Below are positions 34,099 through 50,778 of a stretch of 51,309 nt of DNA, in pieces (within the stretch, counting starts at the first letter, position 1; each line of letters starts with the position of its first letter). Both the position numbers and the translations under genes were made by a program. The stretch covers positions 1 to 51,309 of the forward strand of contig JAFGXP010000002.1 of NCBI GenBank assembly GCA_016936535.1, given 5' to 3'. The stretch comes from Thiotrichales bacterium (lineage in GTDB: Bacteria > Pseudomonadota > Gammaproteobacteria > Thiomicrospirales > Thiomicrospiraceae). The notes beneath the pieces are model-generated. The model made no database searches and was not told the origin of the DNA. It saw only the letters and a program-made list of their open reading frames with translations.

Positions 34099-35097
34099 AT
34101 GCGTTTTGCAAGCAAGCGAATTCAGCAAGTCGCCTGCCATGCGGCACGGTTTGGTGTTTTGATATTCGGTGGCTTAGCTTTGACTGGCGCGCCGGTTTAT
34201 GCTCAAGAGCCGCCATTGATTGATTTGGGCGCGGAGTTGGAACAGTTGCAGCAAAAGCCGGCTTCACCCTCTGGGCAAGCGGTTCAGAATCCGGCACCGC
34301 CCGAACCCGCTTCGCCGGAGAAACTCTCCAAGCCAGCCAAGGCGGCAACGAAACCCGTCGAAACGCCTCCACCGGATTGGGGTTACCAAGGTCAAAACGG
34401 TCCTCAAGCTTGGGGCCGTTTAGCGCCCGAATTTTCGCTGTGTGCCACAGGTAAAAATCAGTCACCGATTGATTTACGCGATGCCCGTGCAATCGGTACT
34501 CAAGGCCTGCCAAGCTTGGATATTTTTTATCGGGATGTCCCGCTGAAATTGCAGCATACCGGTAAAGGAGTCCAAGTGAATTATCCGATCGGCAGCGGTT
34601 TTATTCAGGTTGCCGGGCAACGTTATGAGTTGATGAGTTTGGCGTTACATACGCCAAGCGAGCATTATAAAGAGGGCTTTTCGTATCCGTTAGAAGTTCA
34701 AATTGAGCATCGCAACGGCGACGGTCAACGTGTGATGATTGCGGTTATTTTTCAAGAGGGGGCATTCAATCCACAACTGGATGTGTTGTTGGGTCCGCTG
34801 CCCAAAACGGCCGGCAAAGAGCTGTTCTTTCGTGGGTTAAGCTTGAATCCAGTGCAGTTTTTGCCAGGCAATACCGAGTTTTACCAGTATAACGGTTCTT
34901 TAACTCAGCCACCTTGTAGCGAAGGGGTCTATTGGATGGTGTTTAAGCAGCCGTTGGAGGCTTCGGCTGAGCAAATTCAGCGTTTAACCGAGGTGCTTGG
35001 CGACAATGCTCGGCCTCCTCAAGCCTTGAATGCCCGCCATTTGTTGAAGTCATGGTCGGAGTTGCCGTTGGAAAACCGGCCTTATGAGTTTTATTAG
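34099..35097 (+). CDS. Alpha-carbonic-anhydrase-fold protein lacking two zinc ligands
   Basis: A 332-residue exported protein. Signal peptide to about residue 35 (APVYAQ), a Pro/Ala-rich linker (52-91), then an alpha-CA domain: WGYQGQNGPQAWGRLAPEFSLCATGKNQSPIDL, LPGNTEFYQYNGSLTQPPCSEGVYWMVF and PPQALNARHLL are all canonical. The zinc site is broken. The family FHFH pair reads LALH (A182, H184), and the ExHxVH stretch reads EVQIEH (Q201), so the histidines equal to human CAII H94 and H119 are Ala and Gln. Normal reversible CO2 hydration is therefore unlikely. Possible roles are a scaffold, bicarbonate/CO2 binding, or a different metal site. Shine-Dalgarno-like AGGGGAAAAGG is upstream. Confidence 0.85.
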   Translation: MRFASKRIQQVACHAARFGVLIFGGLALTGAPVYAQEPPLIDLGAELEQLQQKPASPSGQAVQNPAPPEPASPEKLSKPAKAATKPVETPPPDWGYQGQNGPQAWGRLAPEFSLCATGKNQSPIDLRDARAIGTQGLPSLDIFYRDVPLKLQHTGKGVQVNYPIGSGFIQVAGQRYELMSLALHTPSEHYKEGFSYPLEVQIEHRNGDGQRVMIAVIFQEGAFNPQLDVLLGPLPKTAGKELFFRGLSLNPVQFLPGNTEFYQYNGSLTQPPCSEGVYWMVFKQPLEASAEQIQRLTEVLGDNARPPQALNARHLLKSWSELPLENRPYEFY

Positions 35098-38270: not shown

Positions 38271-38720
38271 ATGACCCCTTTACAACAAGCTAAACAGATT
38301 TGTGCCTCAAATGGCCAAAATCTAACGCCAATTCGTGAGGCGGTTTTTTCCATCTTATTGCAGGGCGCTCAGCCAATGAGTGCCTATGAAATTTTAGATC
38401 GTTACCGACAAAATCAACCATCTGGCGCACAACCCCCAACCATTTATCGAGCCTTAGCTTTCTTGGAAGAAAATGGCCTGATTCATCGGATGGCCTCCAC
38501 TCGGCAGTTTTTGGTTTGTGATCATCTTGGTGAACATCATGCCCATGATGTGACGCAGTTTTTTATCTGCGATGCGTGCGGTGCGGTGGAAGAATCGATT
38601 ATTTCGCACGCTTTGTGGCATGAAATTACCGATCAAGCCGCCAAAATTCAGTTTCAGGTAAAGCAACCCAGTCTCGAAATTCATGGCGTGTGCCGCAACT
38701 GCCGAACCGGTGTCAACTGA
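38271..38720 (+). CDS. zur: Fur-family zinc regulator (Zur-like)
   Basis: A 149-residue Fur-fold repressor. Winged helix LTPIREAVFSILLQGAQPMSAYEILDRY...PPTIYRALAFLEENGLIHR, then a C-terminal dimerisation and metal domain with FLVCDHLGEHHAHDV, CDACG and CRNCR, giving the two CxxC structural zinc sites and the His-rich sensor site. Zur rather than Fur is favoured by length, the Cys pattern and the Zur-box-like palindromes in front of the next genes. Zn-bound Zur would repress the COG0523, lipoprotein and ZnuD-like genes downstream. Confidence 0.88.
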   Translation: MTPLQQAKQICASNGQNLTPIREAVFSILLQGAQPMSAYEILDRYRQNQPSGAQPPTIYRALAFLEENGLIHRMASTRQFLVCDHLGEHHAHDVTQFFICDACGAVEESIISHALWHEITDQAAKIQFQVKQPSLEIHGVCRNCRTGVN

Positions 38721-38804
38721 ACGGAAAGTAAGATCACTTTTGCTTAAGGTTTTAAGGCGATAGGGGCCTTGGATATTAAATAACGTTTTCTTATTTAATT
38801 GTGG

Positions 38805-38847
38805 TTGACTCTGGTTGAGTTGTAGTGTGTTATGTTATAGCATTTGC
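38805..38847 (+). promoter_or_regulatory. Promoter with overlapping Zur box of the COG0523 gene
   Basis: TTGACT (38805-38810) and TGTTAT (38828-38833) are 17 nt apart. The palindrome GTGTGTTATGTTATAGCATTTGC (38825-38847 in two halves around the centre) resembles the enterobacterial Zur box (ATGTTATA-N-TATAACAT) and covers the -10, as expected for repression. Confidence 0.6.
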
Positions 38848-38869
38848 ATGATTCAAGAGGGAAAAAGTT

Positions 38870-40078
38870 ATGCCAGTCAATTCAACGCGTCTACCGGTAA
38901 CGGTGCTGTCCGGTTTTTTAGGAGCGGGTAAAACCACTTTGCTTAATCATATTTTGAATAATCGTGAAAATTTGCGGGTTGCGGTCATTGTCAATGACAT
39001 GAGCGAGGTGAATATCGACGCTGATTTGCTTAATAGCGAAGTGGAACTGAACCGCGCCGAAGAGAAGATGGTGGAGATGTCCAACGGCTGCATCTGCTGT
39101 ACCTTACGCGAAGATTTATTGATTGAGGTTGGCAAGCTGGCAGAATCGGGGCGTTTTGATTATCTTCTGATTGAGTCAACCGGCATTTCCGAGCCCTTGC
39201 CCGTGGCGGAAACCTTTACCTTTACCTTTACCTTTGCCGATGAACAGGGGCGTTCTCTTTCTGATGTGGCGCGTTTAGATACGATGGTCACGGTCGTGGA
39301 TGGCAAACATTTTTTACGCGATTTTTATCAAGCCCAACCTTTACAAGAGAGCGGTGAGCATTTAGGCGAAGAAGATCTGCGTTCTGTAGCCGATTTATTG
39401 ATTCAACAGGTTGAGTTTGCCGATGTGCTGCTCATTTCTAAAACCGATTTAATGAATAAAGATGAGGTGAATACGCTTAAAGCAACCTTATTGACGCTCA
39501 ATCCACAAGCCAAAATTTACCCGATGGAACAGGGGAAGATTGATTTGCACCAGGTGTTAAACACCGGCTTGTTTGATTTTGATCAGGCGCAACAAGCGCC
39601 AGGTTGGCTCAAAGAAATGCGCGGAGAGGCTATGCCAGAAACTGAAGAGTATGGCATTAGCAGTTTTGTGTTTCGGGCGCGCCGGCCTTTTCATCCCCAA
39701 AAATTTTGGGAGTTTTTGCATCAAGATTTACCGCAAGGCAAATTACTGCGTTCCAAAGGGTATTTTTGGTTAGCCTCACAGCCGCAAATGGCGGGGATTT
39801 GGCAACAAGCAGGTGGAATTGCCCATCACGGCTGGGCAGGCATGTTTTGGAAAGCCGTACCGGAAAGCCAATGGCCAAGTGATGCAGAATCGCGTGGATT
39901 GATTGCTAAGAAATGGGTCGAGCCCTTCGGTGATATGCGTCAGGAACTGGTTTTTATTGGTCAGGCGTTAGACAAAAAACAGATGATTCGCCAGCTTCAT
40001 GCCTGCCTGCTGGAAGAAGATGAGCTTTATGCCGGTATGGCCTATTGGCAGAAAATGCACGATCCCTTTGCCGCTTAA
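38870..40078 (+). CDS. COG0523 GTPase, zinc metallochaperone-like (ZigA/YjiA type)
   Basis: A 402-residue G3E GTPase. P-loop [15 protein letters not shown] (15-29), [13 protein letters not shown] (Walker B region), the CICC metal-binding motif (C74, C76, C77) and [10 protein letters not shown] (NKxD-like guanine specificity); C-terminal CobW domain. Such proteins move zinc to client enzymes or spare it during starvation. A four-unit ACCTTT repeat encodes T115-F122 as alternating Thr-Phe. It follows zur with a Zur-box promoter between them, so zinc rather than cobalt or nitrile-hydratase function is favoured. Confidence 0.88.
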
Positions 40079-40089
40079 AAAAAAGCGAT

Positions 40090-40110
40090 AAATGTTATGT
40101 TATTACGTTT
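40090..40110. promoter_or_regulatory. Zur-box-like palindrome 1
   Basis: AAATGTTATG-T-TATTACGTTT, a 21-bp imperfect palindrome with AAA...TTT ends and a GTTA/TTAC core, resembles the Zur consensus. It lies 79 nt upstream of the lipoprotein start. Confidence 0.55.
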
Positions 40111-40115
40111 TATTT

Positions 40116-40134
40116 AATGTTATATTGTAACGCG
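40116..40134. promoter_or_regulatory. Zur-box-like palindrome 2
   Basis: AATGTTATA-T-TGTAACGCG aligns with the Zur consensus, closely on the left half. It is centred 25 bp from box 1, about 2.4 helical turns away, so two dimers could bind side by side. It lies between the COG0523 and lipoprotein genes. Confidence 0.65.
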
Positions 40135-40188
40135 TTTTTTTCCAGCTCTCTTTTAGTAGATACATAAGATGATTAATAGGTACACAAG

Positions 40189-41262
40189 ATGATTTTTCAC
40201 AATGCTCGGTTTTCCTTTGTTCCCAGCCAATTGGCGCTCATTTTAAGTTTCAGCACCTTACTCTTGAGTGGTTGTGGTGGGGGATCGGGTTCATCCCCAC
40301 TACCTCCCGCGCAAGAACCGGCCGCCGAGCCACGCTTCTTGGGCTTACCGGCGGGCTTAACCTTGAGTATGGTGGATACGCACGGCCTGAAATATTACGC
40401 CTTCAATACCGACAGCGAAACCTTGACCGATTTAAATGCCTTGGCCGACGCCAGTTCAGATAGCGCCGTGCAAGCACTGCGCATCAGTGACGCGAGCCTT
40501 TTAGGGTCGTTTTTGCAATGGCCGGATTTTCGGGTGGTGAACGCAGTCGAAAAACTAGACGGAAAATATCTGTTGATGAAACCGGCTTATCAAGCCGGCA
40601 CGGCGGTTATCGCCGGTACGGCCGACAATCCGGGCGACTTTACCCAGTTAACGCATTTTCATGATACGGAGCTGGCTGCGCACAGTGACGCCGAGTTTTA
40701 TGGAGCGGATAGCTGTACTCAAGCCGACCAAGATGCTGGAACCTGTAGCGGAAAATATTATGGTATGCAGCGTTTAAATGCCTTTGTGGCCGAGCAAAAC
40801 GAATTAGAAGCTGAGTTGGCTGGGGTCTTACCGCAAGACCAAACCCTGTGTCGTGCTTATGTTGACCCTTATCAGAAATTTGAGCTAGAACAGGCAACTG
40901 CCGAAGAGACTCACGCGCACGGTGATTTGATGCACTTTGCCTTGACCGAAAGCGGACGAATCTATTTTTACACCGAAGGCGAAAACGGGCTGCAAAGCGC
41001 TCAAGGTTTTGTCGCGCTGAATGGCCTAAGTTCAGAAAACCCGATTATGAATTGTGCTCGCACCGCCGTGAGCCGAGTTAGTGAAGAGGGCATTTTGGTC
41101 TTTGTGCCAGAAACTCAAAAATTGTATTTGGTCGATTCGCATGGCGGCGACTTCCACCAACATTCGCAATGGGATCTGGCAGATTTGCTGCCGCAAGGCG
41201 TTACGGTGGATCTGATGGCGATTCTCGGTGAAGGCAGTCACGAAGAACACGCACACGAATAA
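40189..41262 (+). CDS. His-rich periplasmic lipoprotein, probable zinc-binding
   Basis: A 357-residue lipoprotein: the signal peptide ends in the lipobox LLLSGC followed by a Gly/Ser/Pro linker. The mature part contains several His clusters: THFHDTELAAH, EETHAHGDLMHF, DSHGGDFHQHSQWD and the C-terminus GSHEEHAHE. Aspartates and a few cysteines are interspersed. No named domain was recognised. Under two Zur-box-like sites and just upstream of a ZnuD-like receptor, it probably binds zinc at the outer membrane or in the periplasm. Its start region carries a 14-bp near-duplicate (40161-40174 and 40181-40194); only the second ATG opens the gene. Confidence 0.75.
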   Translation: MIFHNARFSFVPSQLALILSFSTLLLSGCGGGSGSSPLPPAQEPAAEPRFLGLPAGLTLSMVDTHGLKYYAFNTDSETLTDLNALADASSDSAVQALRISDASLLGSFLQWPDFRVVNAVEKLDGKYLLMKPAYQAGTAVIAGTADNPGDFTQLTHFHDTELAAHSDAEFYGADSCTQADQDAGTCSGKYYGMQRLNAFVAEQNELEAELAGVLPQDQTLCRAYVDPYQKFELEQATAEETHAHGDLMHFALTESGRIYFYTEGENGLQSAQGFVALNGLSSENPIMNCARTAVSRVSEEGILVFVPETQKLYLVDSHGGDFHQHSQWDLADLLPQGVTVDLMAILGEGSHEEHAHE

Positions 41263-41302
41263 ATAGGAAATCGAAACCGATTTTTTCACGATCAATGGAA
41301 AC

Positions 41303-41320
41303 AGGCAGGGAAACCTGCCT
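41303..41320 (+). other. Intercistronic hairpin with GAAA tetraloop
   Basis: AGGCAGG-GAAA-CCTGCCT is a perfect 7-bp stem with a stable GNRA loop. It ends 9 nt before the ATG of the TonB receptor gene, where the ribosome-binding site should be. No T-run follows, so it may affect translation or mRNA processing rather than terminate transcription. Confidence 0.6.
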
Positions 41321-41329
41321 TTGGTGCTT

Positions 41330-43435
41330 ATGAAAAACACATTTTTACGGGTCTTGGTTGGGCCTTTTTTTGTGATTTGGACGCAAACTGTGGCTGCCCT
41401 CTCAACCGAACCGGCAAGTGCAGTCTTGCCAAAGGTCGAAATCGAAGCCCAGTCCTCTAATGAATCCGATCGTTTGACGCAATCGACCGATCATCTGCAA
41501 AAACAGACATCCGGGGAAACGCTAGGCGATTATTTGCAAAACCTCCCCAATGTGGATTCGGCCAGTTATGGTCCTGCCGTTGGCCGTCCCGTGGTGCGTG
41601 GCATGAGTGGGTATCGGGTACAGATTTTGCAAAATGATCAGCCGATAAGCGATTTATCAGCGATGAGCCAAGATCATGCGGTGGGCATTAATGCCAAAAC
41701 CGCCCAGCGTATTGAGCTGTTAAAAGGTCCGGCTTCTTTGCTGTATGGCGCCCATGCTGGTGGTGTGGTGCGGGTTGAAGATGCTTTGGCGCAGGGGTTT
41801 CCCCAACCGGGCGTGCAGGGGGAATTCGAGGCTTCTACTAACAGCAACAGTGCTGCGAAAAATTGGGTTGCCAAACTGCAAGCCGGAGGCGAACGTTTTG
41901 CGTTGCAGTGGAGTGGCGTAGCGCAGCAGGCCGACGATTATCAGGCCGCAAACAGACAGCGGATTGCGGATTCAGATTTAACCAATCGTCAAATGCAACT
42001 CGGTTTGAACTATCGTCTTGCGCCACAGCAATGGGTGCAACTCTTCGGCAGCCGTTTGTATAAGGATTATGGCATTCCCAATCAAACCGCTGAGGCAACT
42101 CGGATTGAGATGGATCGTGAGGTGTTCGGTATCCGTTGGCAAGCCGAAGCCTTTCATCCTTATCTGGATAAACTGAGCGTGGAGGTGCAACGAAGTGATT
42201 ATTTGCATCTGGAAACTGAAGGTGACAGCCTAGATGGCCGTTTTGGTCAACAGCAAGATCGTTTGACACTAAGTGCCGATTACAGCCTGGATGCTTGGTG
42301 GGGAAGTACGCGTTTGAGTCTGCTCGATTCGGCACTCAACGTTTGTCATGAGCACGGTCGCTGCCAAAGCTTTCGCGAAGCCGAACGCACGGGCGCTCCT
42401 TTGGGGGATTCATTGGAGCAGTATCTGCTCAATACCGGTCGTCCTTACTCGCACGGTCATCCGATGCCAGATACGCAAACCCAGTCGCTGCAATGGGCAC
42501 TGAATGGACAGCGTGAAATGGGGTCTTGGGGACAGCTGGAGCTGGGCGCCAATGTGGAATACCGAGCCCTGCGAGCAAATCCCGCCAATATTCAAGAAAC
42601 GTGGGTTTATCCAGAACGTCTCGATGCAAACTATTATCAAACTGAACGCGATTACGCAGTGAGTCTCTCGACCGCTTGGCGCAAAGCCTTGCTGCCAGGG
42701 CTGCAAAGCGATCTGAGTTTGAGTTATTTGCAACGTTTGCCCAGTGTGGATGAGCTCTATTGGAACGGCTTTCACCATGCTACCGACAGCTATATCTTCG
42801 GCAATCGTGATTTAGAGATTGAGCAATCTGTAAATGTGGATTGGGATTTGACGTGGAGCCATGCGTCTGGTAATTGGCAACTGGGCTTGTTTTACGCCCA
42901 TTTTTGGGACTATATCTATCAAACCATTGCGTACGATGCTACTGGCCAAGCGCTGAGCGATCCTTTTCATCAAAGCGAGGTGTGGACCACTGAGCAGGAG
43001 AATGCACGGATTTATGGTGGTTCGATCAGCCATCGTTTTACCTTAATCGAACTGGCGAAAACGCCATTGCAGTTGAGCAATCAATTCGATGGCTTGCAGG
43101 CAAAACGCCGTAATGGTGAAAACCTTCCCAGAACTGCTCCCTTAAGTTGGCAGCTTGGCCTAAGCTATCAGCCGACACGTTGGAGTGCGCAGCTGATGGC
43201 CAAGCGGGTTTTTCGTGCCACCCAACTGGCTGATAACGAAAGCTCGACGCCAAGTTACACTTGGCTGTCTGCGTATCTGGATTGGCAAGCACCCCGTCAG
43301 TACGGGCAGTGGACCCTATGGCTCAAAGGTGACAACCTCTTAGACAGTGATGCGCGCAACCACCTCTCATTTTTAAAAGAGCGTGCGCCCTTGATGGGAC
43401 GCAATCTCAGCGCAGGGGTGCGATTGGTTTTTTAA
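41330..43435 (+). CDS. znuD: ZnuD-like TonB-dependent zinc receptor
   Basis: A 701-residue outer-membrane receptor. Signal peptide (cleavage near LSTEPA), plug with LPKVEIEAQ, PVVRGMSGYRVQILQNDQPI and RIELLKGPASLLYGAHAGGVVRV, then the barrel ending GVRLVF. Loop His/Cys clusters VCHEHGRCQSF and YSHGHPMPD resemble the zinc-binding loops of ZnuD. Its place after Zur-type operators and the His-rich lipoprotein (67-nt gap) favours zinc uptake. The ATG at 41330 is taken as start; the frame can be read from TTG at 41321. The hairpin at 41303 is just upstream. Confidence 0.86.
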   Translation: MKNTFLRVLVGPFFVIWTQTVAALSTEPASAVLPKVEIEAQSSNESDRLTQSTDHLQKQTSGETLGDYLQNLPNVDSASYGPAVGRPVVRGMSGYRVQILQNDQPISDLSAMSQDHAVGINAKTAQRIELLKGPASLLYGAHAGGVVRVEDALAQGFPQPGVQGEFEASTNSNSAAKNWVAKLQAGGERFALQWSGVAQQADDYQAANRQRIADSDLTNRQMQLGLNYRLAPQQWVQLFGSRLYKDYGIPNQTAEATRIEMDREVFGIRWQAEAFHPYLDKLSVEVQRSDYLHLETEGDSLDGRFGQQQDRLTLSADYSLDAWWGSTRLSLLDSALNVCHEHGRCQSFREAERTGAPLGDSLEQYLLNTGRPYSHGHPMPDTQTQSLQWALNGQREMGSWGQLELGANVEYRALRANPANIQETWVYPERLDANYYQTERDYAVSLSTAWRKALLPGLQSDLSLSYLQRLPSVDELYWNGFHHATDSYIFGNRDLEIEQSVNVDWDLTWSHASGNWQLGLFYAHFWDYIYQTIAYDATGQALSDPFHQSEVWTTEQENARIYGGSISHRFTLIELAKTPLQLSNQFDGLQAKRRNGENLPRTAPLSWQLGLSYQPTRWSAQLMAKRVFRATQLADNESSTPSYTWLSAYLDWQAPRQYGQWTLWLKGDNLLDSDARNHLSFLKERAPLMGRNLSAGVRLVF

Positions 43436-43486
43436 GCCACCCTAAAATACGCGATAATGGCCGCACGCAATTGCAGGAGAAAAACC

Positions 43487-44590
43487 GTGTGGCAAAAATG
43501 GAAAGAGCGGCTGTGGATAAGTGCAGACCAATCGTTGAATTTAGAACCGTCTGCCGCCCCTCTGCCAACGCTCTGGTTATTGGGGAAAACGGGGGCGGGA
43601 AAGTCCTCGTTGGTACAAGCCATTACCGGTTTGGATTCGGTGGCAGTGGGGAACGGTTTTGCCCCCTGTACCCAAACCGCCAACGTTTATTTCTATCCAC
43701 AAACTCAACCGTTGATGCGCTTTCTCGATACCCGCGGTTTAGGGGAAGCGAATTACGATGCCCACGACGATGTCGCTCAAGCTCGTAACGCCAGTCATGG
43801 TCTGGTGGTGGTAGCCAAACTGGAAGAGGTCGAGCAAAGCCACCTTTTGCACGCTCTGCGTCAAATTAACCCACGTGATTTTCCCCATACTTTGCTTTTA
43901 TTGACAGCCGCCCATTCGGTTAAGGCTTCCGAACGTTTGTCACTTCAGACTTATCAGCACCAGCAGTTTTCTCAAGCATGGCGTGCGCCCTTACCCGTGG
44001 TCACCGTGGATTTTCTGCAGCCGGCTGATTCCCCCAGCGACGAAGATTTTTTTGGACAGCAGGCGCTGTTTCGTGCGCTGGCCGATCAGTTACCGATTCT
44101 GCATCTGATGCTAAATCGAAGCCAATATAGCGATGCCGAACAGGTGCGATATCAAAGTGTTAAGCAAGAGATTTTGTGGTATGCCGGTTCTGCCGGAGCA
44201 TTCGATGCTTTACCCGGCCTGGGTTTGGTTTCGGTACCTGCGGTGCAAGCGTTAATGCTGCGCAATCTGGCAGCGCGTTATGGCATTGCATGGAGTCGAA
44301 CACGCTTGGCGCAACTTTTAGCGGCATTGGGCAGTAGCTTTGCCTTGCATTATGCGGCCAATCTTGGTGCGCGCCAATTGGGCAAGTTGATTCCAATTTA
44401 TGGACAAACCGCGGGTGCCGCTTTGGCTTCCGGCGTCAGTTTTGCCACTACCTATGCTCTTGGGCGAGCCGCTTGTTACTATTTTTATCAATTACAACAC
44501 GAACAGCCTATTTCTGAAGAGACGCTGCGGCGTCTCTACCGAGAGGCTCTGCAAATGGGCAAAAAAGGGGGCGGTAATGCCACTTCGTAG
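43487..44590 (+). CDS. P-loop GTPase with C-terminal DUF697-like membrane region
   Basis: A 367-residue protein. GKTGAGKSSLVQAITG (about residues 25-40) is the P-loop, FLDTRGLGEANYD the G3/switch II region; a clear NKxD is not visible (LLTAAHSVKA is at its place). The C-terminal third (GAFDALPGLGLVSVPAVQALML... ALGSSFALHYAANLGARQLGKLIPIYGQTAGAALASGVSFATTYALG) is the amphipathic/hydrophobic segment of DUF697/YcjF-type proteins. Start is GTG 43487 because AGGAG lies 7 nt upstream; an ATG at 43457 has no ribosome-binding site. It overlaps the next GTPase gene by 14 nt. Function unknown; membrane remodelling or stress response is conjecture. Confidence 0.75.
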   Translation: MWQKWKERLWISADQSLNLEPSAAPLPTLWLLGKTGAGKSSLVQAITGLDSVAVGNGFAPCTQTANVYFYPQTQPLMRFLDTRGLGEANYDAHDDVAQARNASHGLVVVAKLEEVEQSHLLHALRQINPRDFPHTLLLLTAAHSVKASERLSLQTYQHQQFSQAWRAPLPVVTVDFLQPADSPSDEDFFGQQALFRALADQLPILHLMLNRSQYSDAEQVRYQSVKQEILWYAGSAGAFDALPGLGLVSVPAVQALMLRNLAARYGIAWSRTRLAQLLAALGSSFALHYAANLGARQLGKLIPIYGQTAGAALASGVSFATTYALGRAACYYFYQLQHEQPISEETLRRLYREALQMGKKGGGNATS

Positions 44591-46151
44591 ATTGAATTGG
44601 TTAGGGCGCTTTAGCCAAGGCCAGTGGCGTTGGTCGCTGGCCTTGTATGGTCTGCCGCTGCTGCTGTTTGTGGGATTTTCTTTATACAGTCTTTATCAGC
44701 AGGATTTATTGTTAGCTTTGGCCGTTCTCAGTGCCCTAGCCAGTTTATTGGTGTGGCTGGGGGCGTGGATAGGGCGCTGGCGGAAAAACCGCTCGAAACA
44801 ACAGCTTGAACCGATTCCTGCGAGCCCAACTCTTGACCCTACTTGGGTTGAGCCGTCGGCTGAATGGTCTGAGGCCGAGCAGTTGCTTTGGCAGCAAATG
44901 AATCAACAAATTGGCGCTTTGCTGCAAATGGATGCCAATTGGTCAACTCTGGAAAAACACGCTTGGGCTCTCTCGGATCAAGTGGCACAAGCCTATCAAA
45001 AAAAACCGCTACAGGTTTCGCTGCCGGAAATGTTGCTGTTAACGCAGCAGTTAAGCCAGCGAGTTCGAGCATTACTTTTAGCGCATTTGCCTTTTGCCGA
45101 GCAGCTTAAGCTCTCTCAAGTGGTGCGCGCCTATCGTTTTTACGAAGATTATGCCGACTTAGGGCAGGGCGCTTATCGAACTGGGATGGCCGGCTATCGC
45201 ATTGCCCGGATGTTGATTAACCCGTTACAGGCCTTAGCGGCGGAAGCCAAGGATGTTGCCAGCGGTGCTGTATTGACGGAGTTCAGCGACACGTTGCTGC
45301 GCAATTTAAAATACGCGCTTTTGCAAGAAGCGGTAGCCGTCAGTATTGAACTCTATTCTGGACGTTACCAAGTGGCTGACAGTGAACGGAAAATCTCCGA
45401 TGCCGCCCAACAAGACGCCACGCGAATGGCCGCCGATTTTGAACCCTTAAGAGTCGTTTTGATCGGCCAAATCAGTGCCGGAAAATCTTCCTTGATTAAT
45501 GCCTTACGCCAGGGGTTTATGGCCGAAGTCAATCTTTTGCCAACGACGCATCAGTTGCAAGTCTATGAGTTTCTTCAAGGCGGATCCGTACAGATGCATT
45601 TGGTGGATACCCCCGGTTTAGACAACAACGAGAAAGGGCAGCGCCAACTTCTGCAACAGATGCAGCAAGCCGATTTAGTACTCTGGTTATTGCGAGCCAA
45701 TCAACCGGCCAAGCAATGGGATGTTATGCTGAAAGCGGCTTGGGATCGCTTTTACCAATCGCCCGAAAATATGCATCGTCAAAAGCCACCCATTATCGGG
45801 GTGGTGACCCATTTACAGCGCATTGCAGGTTTGGATCTCAACCAAGCCCCATTTAATCTACAAACCCCGGAAACGCAAGCGGAGCAAACGTTGGCCGCCT
45901 TGCTGGTTTATTCACAAACGCTGCTCGATCTGCCTCTGGTGTTGCCCGTTGATTTAGAGAACCCGCAACAGCCATTTGGCCTAGAACTCATTGAACAAGC
46001 CTTAAGCGATCGTCTGGATCAAGCCCGTAATGCACAGCGCAACCGGCAGCGCTTAGACAGTAGCACCACGCGGTCACTGTGGCGCACCCAAGGCAAACGC
46101 CTGCTCAAAAGCAGTGGCGCTCTGTTTCAACTCTGGCGAAAAAATTACTGA
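44577..46151 (+). CDS. Membrane-anchored P-loop GTPase
   Basis: A 524-residue protein with two N-terminal transmembrane helices (about 22-41 and 44-66), a helical stretch with coiled-coil character (95-290), then a GTPase domain: [14 protein letters not shown] (G297-L310, P-loop), [12 protein letters not shown] (G3), VTHLQRI at the place of NKxD. The layout resembles dynamin/YeeP-like GTPases that insert into membranes. Start at ATG 44577 is chosen for GGGGGCGG 8 nt upstream. It overlaps the previous GTPase by 14 nt, so the pair is probably translationally coupled. No named function. Confidence 0.75.
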
Positions 46152-47115: not shown

Positions 47116-48105
47116 ATGGATTGGCGTCTGCGTTTGAAAAAGTCTCTACGACAAGAAAAACTTTATAATTATCTGCTGTCTCTCAACCAAGCGGTCGCTG
47201 TCGCGGTATTGGCGGAGCATTTTGCCTGCAGCTTAAAGACCATACGCCGCGATATTGAGGAACTAGCCGAATGCAAAAAGTCGCCTTGGTATATTTTCGA
47301 GAATAAAGTTTATATTGACCAAGAACAAAAAAAACGCTTTCAAATTGAGGATAACTGGCTCAGCAGCGAAGAATTGAATGGTTTGATTGCGCTCTATCAT
47401 AGCGTTGACAACCTCTCCAACGGCGCGCTGCAAGGGTTGCTCAATCCGGTTAAAGAGCGCATCATCGGAGCGATTTCACAGCAACAATCGGCGAGCAAAT
47501 TACCGCAATCGCCGATCAAAATCATTGAAATAGCCAATCGCCAACTCGACCCGCAGCTTTTCCAGCAATTACATCGTTGTATTGCCCAGCGCACTGTGAT
47601 TACCGTACTTTACTGGAAGCGCAGCGATGATCAACAGCAAATTCGGACACTTTCCCCTCAACAGCTTGTTCGTTATAAAGATAATTGGTATGTCGATGCC
47701 TATTGCCACCAAGTCAATGACCTGAGAAGTTTCGCTTTAGACGCGATTATCAAGGTGACAGAATCCTTGCCAAGCCAATATCGGCAAATTGAACCAAGAG
47801 AAATTGACCGCCATTTTCAACAAAGTTATGGAATCTTCAGCGGCCAAGCCACTCAAACTGCAAGCTTACACTTTGATGAATACATCACCCGTTGGGTTGA
47901 ACACGAAATCTGGCATCCGCAGCAGATTAGCGAAAAGCAACCCGACGGTAGCCTGATTATGCACCTGCCATATCACCACGATATTGAACTCATTCAAGAC
48001 ATTCTAAAACACGGCTCCAATGTCAAGGTTCTTGCCCCGCAAGACCTCAAAGACAAAGTCAAACAACGCCTAGCACAAGCTTGGGAGGCGTATCAAAGTG
48101 AATAA
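47116..48105 (+). CDS. WYL-domain transcriptional regulator
   Basis: A 329-residue regulator. N-terminal HTH (YNYLLSLNQAVAVAVLAEHFACSLKTIRRDIEEL, about 20-54), then a WYL domain with TVITVLYWKRSDDQQQIRTLSPQQLVRYKDNWYVDAYCHQVNDLRSFALDAI, and a WCX tail (ASLHFDEYITRWVEHEIWHPQQ). WYL proteins sense nucleotides or nucleic acids and often stand next to CRISPR and other defence genes. It precedes cas3 by 84 nt on the same strand. A role in controlling the cas genes is inferred from context. Confidence 0.88.
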   Translation: MDWRLRLKKSLRQEKLYNYLLSLNQAVAVAVLAEHFACSLKTIRRDIEELAECKKSPWYIFENKVYIDQEQKKRFQIEDNWLSSEELNGLIALYHSVDNLSNGALQGLLNPVKERIIGAISQQQSASKLPQSPIKIIEIANRQLDPQLFQQLHRCIAQRTVITVLYWKRSDDQQQIRTLSPQQLVRYKDNWYVDAYCHQVNDLRSFALDAIIKVTESLPSQYRQIEPREIDRHFQQSYGIFSGQATQTASLHFDEYITRWVEHEIWHPQQISEKQPDGSLIMHLPYHHDIELIQDILKHGSNVKVLAPQDLKDKVKQRLAQAWEAYQSE

Positions 48106-48189
48106 AACACCCATGAACAACTTTAGGGACAAGATTTGACCGTTAGGCAAGGTATATTGCTTAGCGTCTGCAAAAGAGGATAGAGCAAA

Positions 48190-50778
48190 ATGATGAGAAG
48201 AAGCATGAAAAAAGAGACGCAAATGAGTAATGAAACCAATGTGCCATTACCCGCTTGTCTTGCCAAAACTTGGAAACAATCGGAAGGTTCGGTCCTTGCA
48301 GGCCGTGATGTTTTGACCCATTGTTTGATTGTAGGCACGGTCGCTCAAAGATTGATTGAGCAAATGCCGGATTGGCTCAAAGAGGCTTACTTTCCGGAAG
48401 GTTCCGCCTTGGTGGTAGCCTGTCATGATGATGGCAAGGTGAGCCCGACTTTTCAGCACAAAATTTATAACAATCTATCTGCAACGCCGGAAGATATCTG
48501 GGCGGTTCTTAAAAGTCATACGCTGGATGAAAATGCTCAATGGGGCGGTCATGCCGGAGTCAGTCAGGTGACTCTAGAACATCTTGATGTTGGAAAATAT
48601 ATTGCCGAAATTGCCGGTCAACATCACGGCTGGTCGCCTAATATCGGCGCACGCCAAGCCATTGCCGAAGTGTTTGGCGGTCAGTCTTGGTTGTCGCAAC
48701 GCATAGTGCTGATTGAACAGCTTAAAACCGCATTGAAGCAAGATTTTCCTGCGGTTGAAAATGCAATCCAAGCCAAGTTACTGGCTGGTTTAACCACCGT
48801 ATCCGATTGGATTGGCTCAGGCAGTTTATTTGATGACCCAAATGAAGATTGGCAACCCAGAATCGAGCAAGCCATTGAACAAGCTGGCTTTGTTGCGCCA
48901 AAAATTAAGCAGAATCTCAGCTTTGCGCAACTCTTTGGCTTTGAGCCTCGGCAAGCTCAGACAGCGTTAATTGAGCTGGCTAACCAGCCGGGTGTTTATG
49001 TGCTTGAAGCGCCGATGGGATTGGGCAAAACGGAAGCGGCACTCTATGCCGCTTATCAATTGCTTGCCCAAAATAAAGCAACCGGCCTGTATTTTGCCCT
49101 GCCCACCCAGCTTACCTCGGAAAAAATTCACGAGCGCGTCGATGCCTTTTTAAAGACCATTCTCGAAGAGGATTCATTGCATAGCAGCCCGCTTTTACTG
49201 CATGGACAAGCTTGGTTAAAAGCCCAGATGGGTGAAGATGCCGCACCGGGAGGCGAATGGTTTAGTCAAGGTAAGAAAGGAATTCTCGCGCCTTTTGCAG
49301 TGGGCACGATTGATCAAGCTTTGATGGCCGTTTTGCACGTTAAGCACGGTTTTGTGCGTACCTTTGGCTTGGCCGGAAAAGTGGTGATTTTGGATGAGGT
49401 GCATACTTACGATGCCTATACCGGCACGGTGATGGATGAGTTAGTGGATGCACTGCGCCAACTGCATTGTACGGTGATTATTCTCAGTGCCACGCTGACC
49501 CAAGAGCGTCGTCAGGCGTTACTCAAAACCCCCGTTGTTGAGCAAGCTTATCCGCTTATCAGTGGCGTGGCGCATGACATACTCACAGAAATCACGATTG
49601 AGCAGATGGAGGCGAAATCCGTTGCGATTCAAATGGAAGCGGATACACAAGCCGCCATCGAAGAGGCGTTAAACAGAGCCGATCAAGGCCAGCAAGTGTT
49701 GTGGATTGAAAACACGGTCGCCGAAGCGCAAGCGGTATTTTTAACCCTCACGGCACAAGCGTCAGGTTTAAATATCGCAACCGGTTTGCTTCATTCACGC
49801 TTTACGCAAACCCACCGTCAGATTAATGAGCATCAGTGGGTCACCGCCTATGGCAAGGCAGGATGGGCAGAGCGAAACCAACAAGGGCGTATTTTGGTGG
49901 GGACACAAGTATTGGAGCAATCGCTCGATATCGACGCCGACTTTCTTGTAACACGCCTTGCGCCCACCGACATGATTTTGCAAAGGCTTGGGCGTTTGTG
50001 GCGACATGATAACCCTAATCGTCATGCACAGGCTCAATGCGAGGTTTGGTTGTTGGCACCCGCATTGGCGCAGGCGATTGAAAATCCTAAACAGGCTTTT
50101 GGTCATTCTGCTTGGGTCTATGCCCCTTATGTGCTTTGCCGCACGTTGGAGGTGTGGCAAGACCTAAGCCAAGTGAGTTTACCACAAGATATTCGTACCT
50201 TAATTGAGGCCACTTATCAAACGCGTACCGAAACAGACTCGCTCGCCAGCTATTTGCACGAGTTAGAAACACAGCGCAAAAAACTACGCAGCTTAGCTCT
50301 GCAAGGGATGAGTGCGATTGGTCGTGCCAAGCCGGATGAGGCTGTCACCACACGATACTCGGAACAAGAAACGCTCGAAGTCTTATTGCTAAAGCAAGTC
50401 GAGCTCAATCAAATGCACCAAAATCAACTAGGCACCTGGCTCACTTTCAGCGACGACCATCGCGAATTTTATCCTCACAATGGTCGCGCTTTTGGCCACA
50501 AAAAATGGCGAGAGCTTGCCGCTAAGCTGCAACTTAATTTAGTCAAGATTGCTATTCATCAAACGCCGAAAGTTGTCAAACAAAAAACCTTAGCTTGGCT
50601 AAAAGACTATCTCTATTTGGGATTTCCAGACGCTCAGGCCGATGCCAAAGTCCGCTTGGCAATTATTCGAGAAGACGACCAATTAATCACTTTGGATGGC
50701 AGTACCCAAATCAACGAAAAATACACCCTCAGCTATAACGATTGGTTGGGGTATCAAACACTAAAAACGGAGGGGTAA
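48190..50778 (+). CDS. cas3: CRISPR-associated nuclease-helicase Cas3 (type I)
   Basis: An 862-residue HD nuclease plus SF2 helicase. HD domain: H44, H79-D80 in CHDDGK, H121 in GGHAG, H145-H146 in GQHHGW; it ends with VSDWIGSGSLF. Helicase: Walker A GLGKT (277-281), Walker B LDEVH (DExH, 402-405), ILSATLT motif III, GTQVLEQSLDID and LQRLGRLWRH (motif VI). It unwinds and degrades target DNA recruited by Cascade. GAGGA lies 9 nt before the ATG. The type I label is secure; subtype is not determinable because the rest of the cas operon lies beyond the window. No CRISPR repeats occur in the window. Confidence 0.93.
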   Translation: MMRRSMKKETQMSNETNVPLPACLAKTWKQSEGSVLAGRDVLTHCLIVGTVAQRLIEQMPDWLKEAYFPEGSALVVACHDDGKVSPTFQHKIYNNLSATPEDIWAVLKSHTLDENAQWGGHAGVSQVTLEHLDVGKYIAEIAGQHHGWSPNIGARQAIAEVFGGQSWLSQRIVLIEQLKTALKQDFPAVENAIQAKLLAGLTTVSDWIGSGSLFDDPNEDWQPRIEQAIEQAGFVAPKIKQNLSFAQLFGFEPRQAQTALIELANQPGVYVLEAPMGLGKTEAALYAAYQLLAQNKATGLYFALPTQLTSEKIHERVDAFLKTILEEDSLHSSPLLLHGQAWLKAQMGEDAAPGGEWFSQGKKGILAPFAVGTIDQALMAVLHVKHGFVRTFGLAGKVVILDEVHTYDAYTGTVMDELVDALRQLHCTVIILSATLTQERRQALLKTPVVEQAYPLISGVAHDILTEITIEQMEAKSVAIQMEADTQAAIEEALNRADQGQQVLWIENTVAEAQAVFLTLTAQASGLNIATGLLHSRFTQTHRQINEHQWVTAYGKAGWAERNQQGRILVGTQVLEQSLDIDADFLVTRLAPTDMILQRLGRLWRHDNPNRHAQAQCEVWLLAPALAQAIENPKQAFGHSAWVYAPYVLCRTLEVWQDLSQVSLPQDIRTLIEATYQTRTETDSLASYLHELETQRKKLRSLALQGMSAIGRAKPDEAVTTRYSEQETLEVLLLKQVELNQMHQNQLGTWLTFSDDHREFYPHNGRAFGHKKWRELAAKLQLNLVKIAIHQTPKVVKQKTLAWLKDYLYLGFPDAQADAKVRLAIIREDDQLITLDGSTQINEKYTLSYNDWLGYQTLKTEG

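Follow-up and report, generated by a model that had tools for sequence, protein, structure and literature searches.

Catalysis by the usual alpha-carbonic anhydrase (alpha-CA) route requires zinc held on three histidines. The ORF at positions 34099 to 35097 of the 51,309-nucleotide stretch of DNA analyzed here (the window) encodes an alpha-CA homolog that retains only one of them, raising the question of what such a protein might do in an organism that appears to fix CO2. The window makes up contig C47 of an assembly of 2.12 Mb and 97.5% completeness; among the close relatives of this genome, those with names are Thiomicrorhabdus, followed by Hydrogenovibrio and Sulfurivirga. The host had been presumed autotrophic from the window alone, and this was well founded: the genome carries two RuBisCO large-subunit genes, carboxysomal csoSCA, and DabA. 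A search of this genome for a stand-in CA of the alpha or beta class found no second alpha-CA and no beta-CA (PF00484). Comparing tables by eye, we saw no clear pattern between a broken zinc site and the presence of beta-CA or csoSCA.

Domain architecture and zinc site of the window protein

The predicted protein matched the PF00194 profile at 111 to 112 bits, against a curated cut-off of 27, over residues 100 to 317 and profile positions 1 to 252 of 254, and thus belongs to this fold family. PDB 4xz5 was both the nearest solved structure (288 to 289 bits) and the top fold match, covering the whole domain; an NCBIfam search with the protein returned no family. An AlphaFold model of the whole protein (pLDDT 51.9) was too poor for use, and a model of the domain (mean pLDDT 66.5, pTM 0.71) served just to confirm the fold. 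From the N terminus, a signal peptide recognized by eye is followed by EPPLIDLGAELEQL, a linker rich in Pro, Ala, and Lys, and then the alpha-CA domain in full. The ORF and the alpha-CA motifs quoted in the preliminary description are present in the translation, and the mature protein would be expected to reside in the periplasm, carry a disulfide, and bind a partner. Its features are as follows.

34099..35097 (+): CDS of a putatively zinc-less alpha-CA homolog (candidate bacterial CA-related protein, CARP), 332 aa, with orthologs at the same locus
34099..34203 (+): probable Sec signal peptide, residues 1-35; by eye, a hydrophobic run, then VYA-Q
34213..34236 (+): N-terminal PLIDLGAE motif, residues 39-46, from a loose pattern and ortholog comparison
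34237..34374 (+): variable Pro/Ala/Lys-rich linker, residues 47-92, from the translation; evolution is faster in the N-terminal part than in the domain
34375..35055 (+): alpha-CA domain, residues 93-319; PF00194 match, with 4xz5 the top match
34564..34566 (+): K156 in place of the proton-shuttle H64, by alignment
34636..34638 (+): S180 in place of Q92, a position changed in 7/7 broken lineages
34642..34644 (+): A182 (GCG) in place of zinc ligand H94, by alignment
34648..34650 (+): H184 (CAT), equivalent to zinc ligand H96, kept, by alignment
34660..34662 (+): E188, equivalent to gatekeeper E106, kept here and in 17/17 broken orthologs
34699..34701 (+): Q201 (CAA) in place of zinc ligand H119, by alignment; Gln in 16/17 broken orthologs
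34903..34905 (+): T269, equivalent to gatekeeper T199, kept here and in 16/17 broken orthologs
35056..35094 (+): C-terminal tail with an aromatic end (PYEFY), residues 320-332, from ortholog comparison

Using hCA II numbering, in which we take the zinc ligands to be H94, H96, and H119, alignment with orthologs and 4xz5 gave the triad A-H-Q, confirming the broken site reported in the preliminary description (A182 and Q201, with H184 left). The proton shuttle H64 is gone and T200 is replaced by Q270, while the gatekeepers E106 and T199 are in place. With an alpha-CA fold that is missing at least one zinc histidine, the protein has the structural hallmark of a CARP. It shows the looser x-H-Q pattern, not the exact R-H-Q found in cytosolic CARPs of animals. 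A sequencing error is very unlikely, since GCG shares no base with either His codon at any position and the family includes 16 other genomes with a broken gene. Left with one His and one Gln, the protein is very unlikely to catalyze by the usual route, and from its residues we infer that it does not hydrate CO2.

Repeated loss of the zinc site at one locus

In the window's family, 57 of 62 genomes matched PF00194, and translation of the loci yielded 54 distinct long-type orthologs, 37 with H-H-H and 17 broken, once near-identical copies of one gene and L053 (G040; a weak PF00194 match with no BLAST hit) had been dropped. The residue tally, the 54-row tree, and the cone test described below left out 14 complete paralogs or outside homologs and two fragments. 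What had been presented as one odd gene belongs to a recurrent bacterial pattern. The window genome (G000) shares A-H-Q with G031; E-H-Q occurred in five orthologs (G007, G036, G062, G065, and G070), R-R-Q in three (G076, G077, and G081), Q-K-Q in two (G075 and G082), and G-H-Q (G018), S-H-Q (G013), T-H-Q (G078), V-R-Q (G079), and T-H-H (G080) in one each, the last being the sole broken family ortholog that keeps H119. Position 94 was thus A, E, G, S, T, R, V, or Q and position 96 was H, R, or K (R or K in 6/17), with Gln at 119 in 16 of the 17 and H64 missing from 12. The preliminary description had proposed that Ala and Gln conserved across relatives would indicate selection for a noncatalytic role; this held for Gln119, but not for Ala, given the variety at position 94. 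Internal stop codons were absent from all 17 broken genes. In genus g5 (nine genomes), all eight alpha-CA genes found were broken, yet retained, and 16 of the 17 broken genomes had no second alpha-CA, the exception being G031 with the intact L030.

The gene prmB adjoined the CA gene in 53 of the 54 orthologs (16/17 broken and 37/37 intact), and the one lacking it, L070, starts at a contig end. Where the stretches reach, other neighbors were also shared: lon and mogA on the upstream side, and on the downstream side an MFS gene and aroC, the latter not adjoining L065, L066, L068, L080, and L081. A CA-domain tree with the zinc columns masked (66 rows, excluding the fragments L084 and L045 and the distant paralogs L076 and L077; repeated with 54 rows) required three changes between intact and broken, all forced by well-supported branches, and holding all 17 broken genes as one clade was rejected in the 54-row tree (p-AU 3.1e-6). 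A tree of flanking proteins (52 rows, 16 of them broken), made by a quick method with most rows under half filled and excluding L070, which has no prmB on its contig, required seven changes, six of them forced. As counts of change, under the assumption that the three histidines are never regained, these figures indicate that the zinc site was lost at one chromosomal address at least three times, and probably six or seven.

The two trees conflict in that the CA tree unites 12 of the 17 broken genes (support 90/90), which the flanking-protein tree scatters, and joins the E-H-Q genes of genus g6 (100/92), which the flanking-protein tree splits. Rather than many separate losses, the grouping of the 12 might reflect homologous recombination that passed one ancestral broken allele between lineages at this conserved locus. 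We regard this as unlikely, since those 12 genes are diverged and long-branched, making long-branch attraction the preferred explanation of the conflict. Moreover, the best matches of the window protein were the intact L012/L006 (60% identity), which are also near the window gene in the flanking-protein tree, and even the CA tree forces three changes. In G073, a tandem pair of intact alpha-CA genes (L079) lies between prmB and aroC, one of which (L079b) is missing both the N-terminal motif and the aromatic tail.

Other loci in the window were also inspected. A possible zinc-acquisition cluster lies 3 kb downstream (38271-43435). Its genes encode a regulator of the Fur family that by eye looks Zur-like, a GTPase of the CobW/COG0523 type, a His-rich ORF product that resembles a lipoprotein and matches no Pfam family, and a TonB-dependent receptor containing His-rich stretches. 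Zinc starvation was considered as the cause of site loss, and no link is claimed, as neither the Fur-family gene nor the CobW GTPase turned up in the sequence examined downstream of the broken genes of G013 and G018. Behind the TonB receptor are two adjacent GTPase genes (43457-46151; MMR_HSR1 and MMR_HSR1/Dynamin_N), and a WYL-domain regulator followed by a Cas3 HD-helicase (47116-50778) perhaps marks where a CRISPR-Cas locus begins, at the window end.

To place the family in a wider context, we surveyed alpha-CAs at the class and phylum levels. Among 369 genomes of the class, the 80 loci read (covering 82 of 96 match rows; five of the other 14 were genes already in the set) comprised 76 H-H-H genes and four broken ones (A-H-Q, D-H-Q, R-L-Q, and R-I-Q). 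Across 398 genomes of the phylum, 20 loci of 70 match rows were read, mostly low-scoring ones and hence biased toward broken genes, so that the five broken genes found (K-H-Q, E-R-Q, Q-H-Q, R-H-Q in L190, and a doubtful E-H-H in L189) give no frequency estimate. Two of these five belong to a second family, in which 29 genomes held 28 alpha-CAs, 22 of them broken and 19 of those with Gln119, including two H-H-Q genes. In this second family, 27 of the 28 loci (L193-L220) share a neighbor that resembles, by eye, a SPOR-domain lipoprotein, beside intact and broken genes alike. In total, the surveyed Pseudomonadota held 46 distinct broken genes, 41 with Gln119, a count in which L183/L202 and L186/L204 (the same genes) enter once and which includes L189, whose alignment is doubtful and whose E106 was read as Gly. 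In a rough 194-domain FastTree phylogeny, prone to join long branches and with 48 broken rows (both copies of L183/L202 and L186/L204 included), the broken or intact label needed 11 changes, eight of them forced. An apparent T-T-T in L117 was discarded as a frame artifact, the other frame reading H-H-H, and gapped rows for L158, L160, L164, and L166 proved to be split alignments whose other half was H-H-H.

Selection on the broken genes and their possible roles

No broken gene is close enough to the window gene to be paired with it; dN/dS (NG86, CA domain) was determined for pairs of broken genes from other genomes. Seven of the eight pairs gave values of 0.02 to 0.15 (L071/L072 was not computable): 0.021 for L065/L066 (dS 0.97), 0.025 for L069/L067 (dS 1.40), 0.043 for L071/L074, 0.044 for L072/L074, 0.066 for L075/L073, 0.078 for L068/L081, and, highest, 0.153 for L082/L083. 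Intact pairs ranged from 0.005 to 0.047 in six of ten cases, the other four being not computable, and the intact/broken pair L036/L038 gave 0.083. L065/L066 and L069/L067 carry the most weight because high dS is saturated, and both fall inside the intact-pair range. Purifying selection thus acts on broken relatives of the window gene. Some relaxation did occur, judging by the value for L082/L083 and by the long branches of several broken domains in the CA tree (L080, L082/L083, and L075/L073).

Changes were concentrated around the empty site. Among 79 near-invariant columns of the intact domains, the 12 lining the cone, picked from what we take to be the anatomy of hCA II, changed in a mean of 2.58 of seven lineages, against 0.57 for the other 67 (permutation p about 1.5e-4, triad excluded); with the three lineages of the CA tree, the means were 1.15 and 0.20 (0/20000 draws). 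Cone residues 61, 92, 121, 143, and 200 changed in several lineages, to differing residues. In contrast to the cone, E106, H107, E117, H122, P201, P202, W209, and both cysteines were kept in 17/17 broken orthologs, and T199 and the terminal motifs largely stayed. The pocket has been taken apart and the fold spared. A PLIDLGAE-like motif (loose pattern) was present in 17/17 broken and 34/37 intact long orthologs and a terminal Y, F, or W in 14/17 and 36/37, respectively, and neither occurred in the 14 complete paralogs or outside homologs. Conserved in intact orthologs also, these termini mark a shared partner or a need for export or anchoring, not a CARP-specific function. The C-terminal aromatics of long orthologs include YEFY, YYFDF, and FYLY, endings reminiscent of outer-membrane-protein C-termini or PDZ ligands.

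We consider it probable, on present sequence evidence, that the window protein is a zinc-less, nonenzymatic bacterial CARP, a periplasmic binding or scaffold protein that keeps its fold and binding surfaces. The noncatalytic, CARP-like exported protein suggested in the preliminary description is thus supported by repeated loss at one locus, purifying selection, and the kept scaffold. The zinc site would have been lost in place while selection retained the exported fold, including the pair of cysteines. Through its PLIDLGAE segment and aromatic tail, the protein might be tethered to whatever partner the ancestral enzyme had, with the rigid alpha-CA body supplying the binding surface. CO2 hydration would then be a second function that is dispensable, or perhaps unwanted, in some lineages. 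Because selection keeps the fold, both cysteines, and both terminal segments, we favor a role in structure or binding that the ancestral enzyme also had and that outlasted the loss of catalysis.

The main rival is a periplasmic sensor of bicarbonate, CO2, or another small anion, with an open pocket where E106 and T199 hold the anion and Arg, Lys, or a bound cation replaces zinc. Such a role has been suggested for EcaA, an alpha-CA of cyanobacteria (excerpt of PMC9570166), and it would fit the retention of E106 in 17/17 and T199 in 16/17 broken orthologs despite loss of the zinc ligands, as well as the basic residues at positions 94 and/or 96 in R-R-Q, V-R-Q, Q-K-Q, R-L-Q, K-H-Q, and R-H-Q genes. 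However, the window protein has neither Arg nor Lys at these positions (A and H), E106 and E117 may be retained for folding, and the cone residues vary to differing residues where one conserved ligand predicts otherwise, so that we judge a sensor unlikely, if the most credible of the alternatives. An enzyme using another metal or a two-ligand zinc site, such as Glu-His-Gln binding Fe, Mn, or Zn, could account for E-H-Q in 5/17 broken orthologs, and human CA II with Asn in place of H94 was still active at a reduced level (Lesburg 1997, cited in an excerpt of PMC5437132). Against this idea, also raised in the preliminary description, are A, G, S, T, R, V, or Q at position 94 in the other 12, R or K at 96 in 6/17, the loss of H64 in 12/17, and the single His and single Gln offered by the window protein, which together make it improbable. 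Weighing against the main reading, one broken ortholog (T-H-H) keeps H119, and the two H-H-Q genes outside the window's family may still be active, as is the Plasmodium eta-CA with Gln at 119 (PMC5437132). Decay under relaxed selection would agree with the longer branches of several broken lineages and the dN/dS of 0.153 in one pair; this explanation, like a sequencing artifact, is already largely contradicted by the 17 genes free of internal stops, the retention of all-broken genes in genus g5, dN/dS of 0.02 to 0.08 in six of seven computable broken pairs, the concentration of losses in the cone with the scaffold kept, and the recurrent Gln119, and we give it very little credence. A structural or binding CARP role therefore remains the favored reading, ahead of the anion sensor.

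More broadly, we propose tentatively that bacteria repeatedly make CARPs by one favored path, in which H119 becomes Gln, almost any residue can replace H94, the shuttle usually disappears, and both gatekeepers and scaffold remain, with animals and an apicomplexan independently following the same path. Gln119 may keep the empty pocket folded and so make possible a role in the periplasm of autotrophs and other Pseudomonadota, either in sensing (bi)carbonate or in binding a partner. The question of CARP function could then be tested in bacteria, using matched intact and broken sister species of sulfur autotrophs. Genes of this zinc-less kind score far above the PF00194 cut-off, and surveys of CO2-concentrating mechanisms could list them among the carbonic anhydrases.

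Comparison with known alpha-CA-like proteins

Among solved structures, 4xz5, titled as the alpha-CA of Thiomicrospira crunogena XCL-2, has an H-H-H site, in contrast to the A-H-Q of the window protein, which also lacks H64 and Q92; judging from relatives, the two genes probably occupy a common locus. The plant protein dioscorin (4twl), also with an alpha-CA fold, was among the nearest solved structures. Dioscorin is a yam storage protein. A literature search for bacterial CARPs, with most subscription journals outside its scope, found no report among the papers listed. The literature comparisons that follow draw on excerpts of the cited papers. In T. pelophila, the transcript of a gene labeled alpha-CA did not change significantly under DIC limitation (PMC12628692), and if genus g5 is Thiomicrospira, this gene would be one of the broken ones. 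Alpha-CA-like proteins of diatoms are described as lacking the three zinc histidines (PMC9570166) and, on that description, resemble the window protein, albeit in eukaryotes.

A parallel in the active site is Toxoplasma TgCA_RP, which has F-H-Q, Lys at 64, and its gatekeepers kept, and whose recombinant protein was inactive, even after the histidines were restored (PMC5437132). Like the window protein, it combines x-H-Q with Lys at 64 and intact gatekeepers, and unlike it, TgCA_RP is a GPI-anchored protist protein close to the eta class. The Plasmodium eta-CA is active with an H-H-Q site, including Gln at 119, and the excerpted text states that reports of CARPs in early branches are absent (PMC5437132).

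In animals, cnidarian and other CARPs carry R-H-Q and secreted forms were invented recurrently, under little structural constraint (PMC4981384). The third ligand is Gln in CA10 and CA11, and all animal CA-RPs replace Gln with Glu at a position, in that paper's own numbering, that we equate with Q92 (PMC4393933). As far as these excerpts describe them, animal CARPs (vertebrate CA8/10/11 and cnidarian) thus resemble the broken bacterial genes in an alpha-CA fold without the zinc histidines, Gln119, and a changed Q92. They are eukaryotic and of separate origin, and their position 94 tends to Arg, whereas it is variable in the broken bacterial genes. Animal CARPs arose beside active copies. In contrast, 16 of the 17 broken bacterial genomes have no second alpha-CA beside the altered one.
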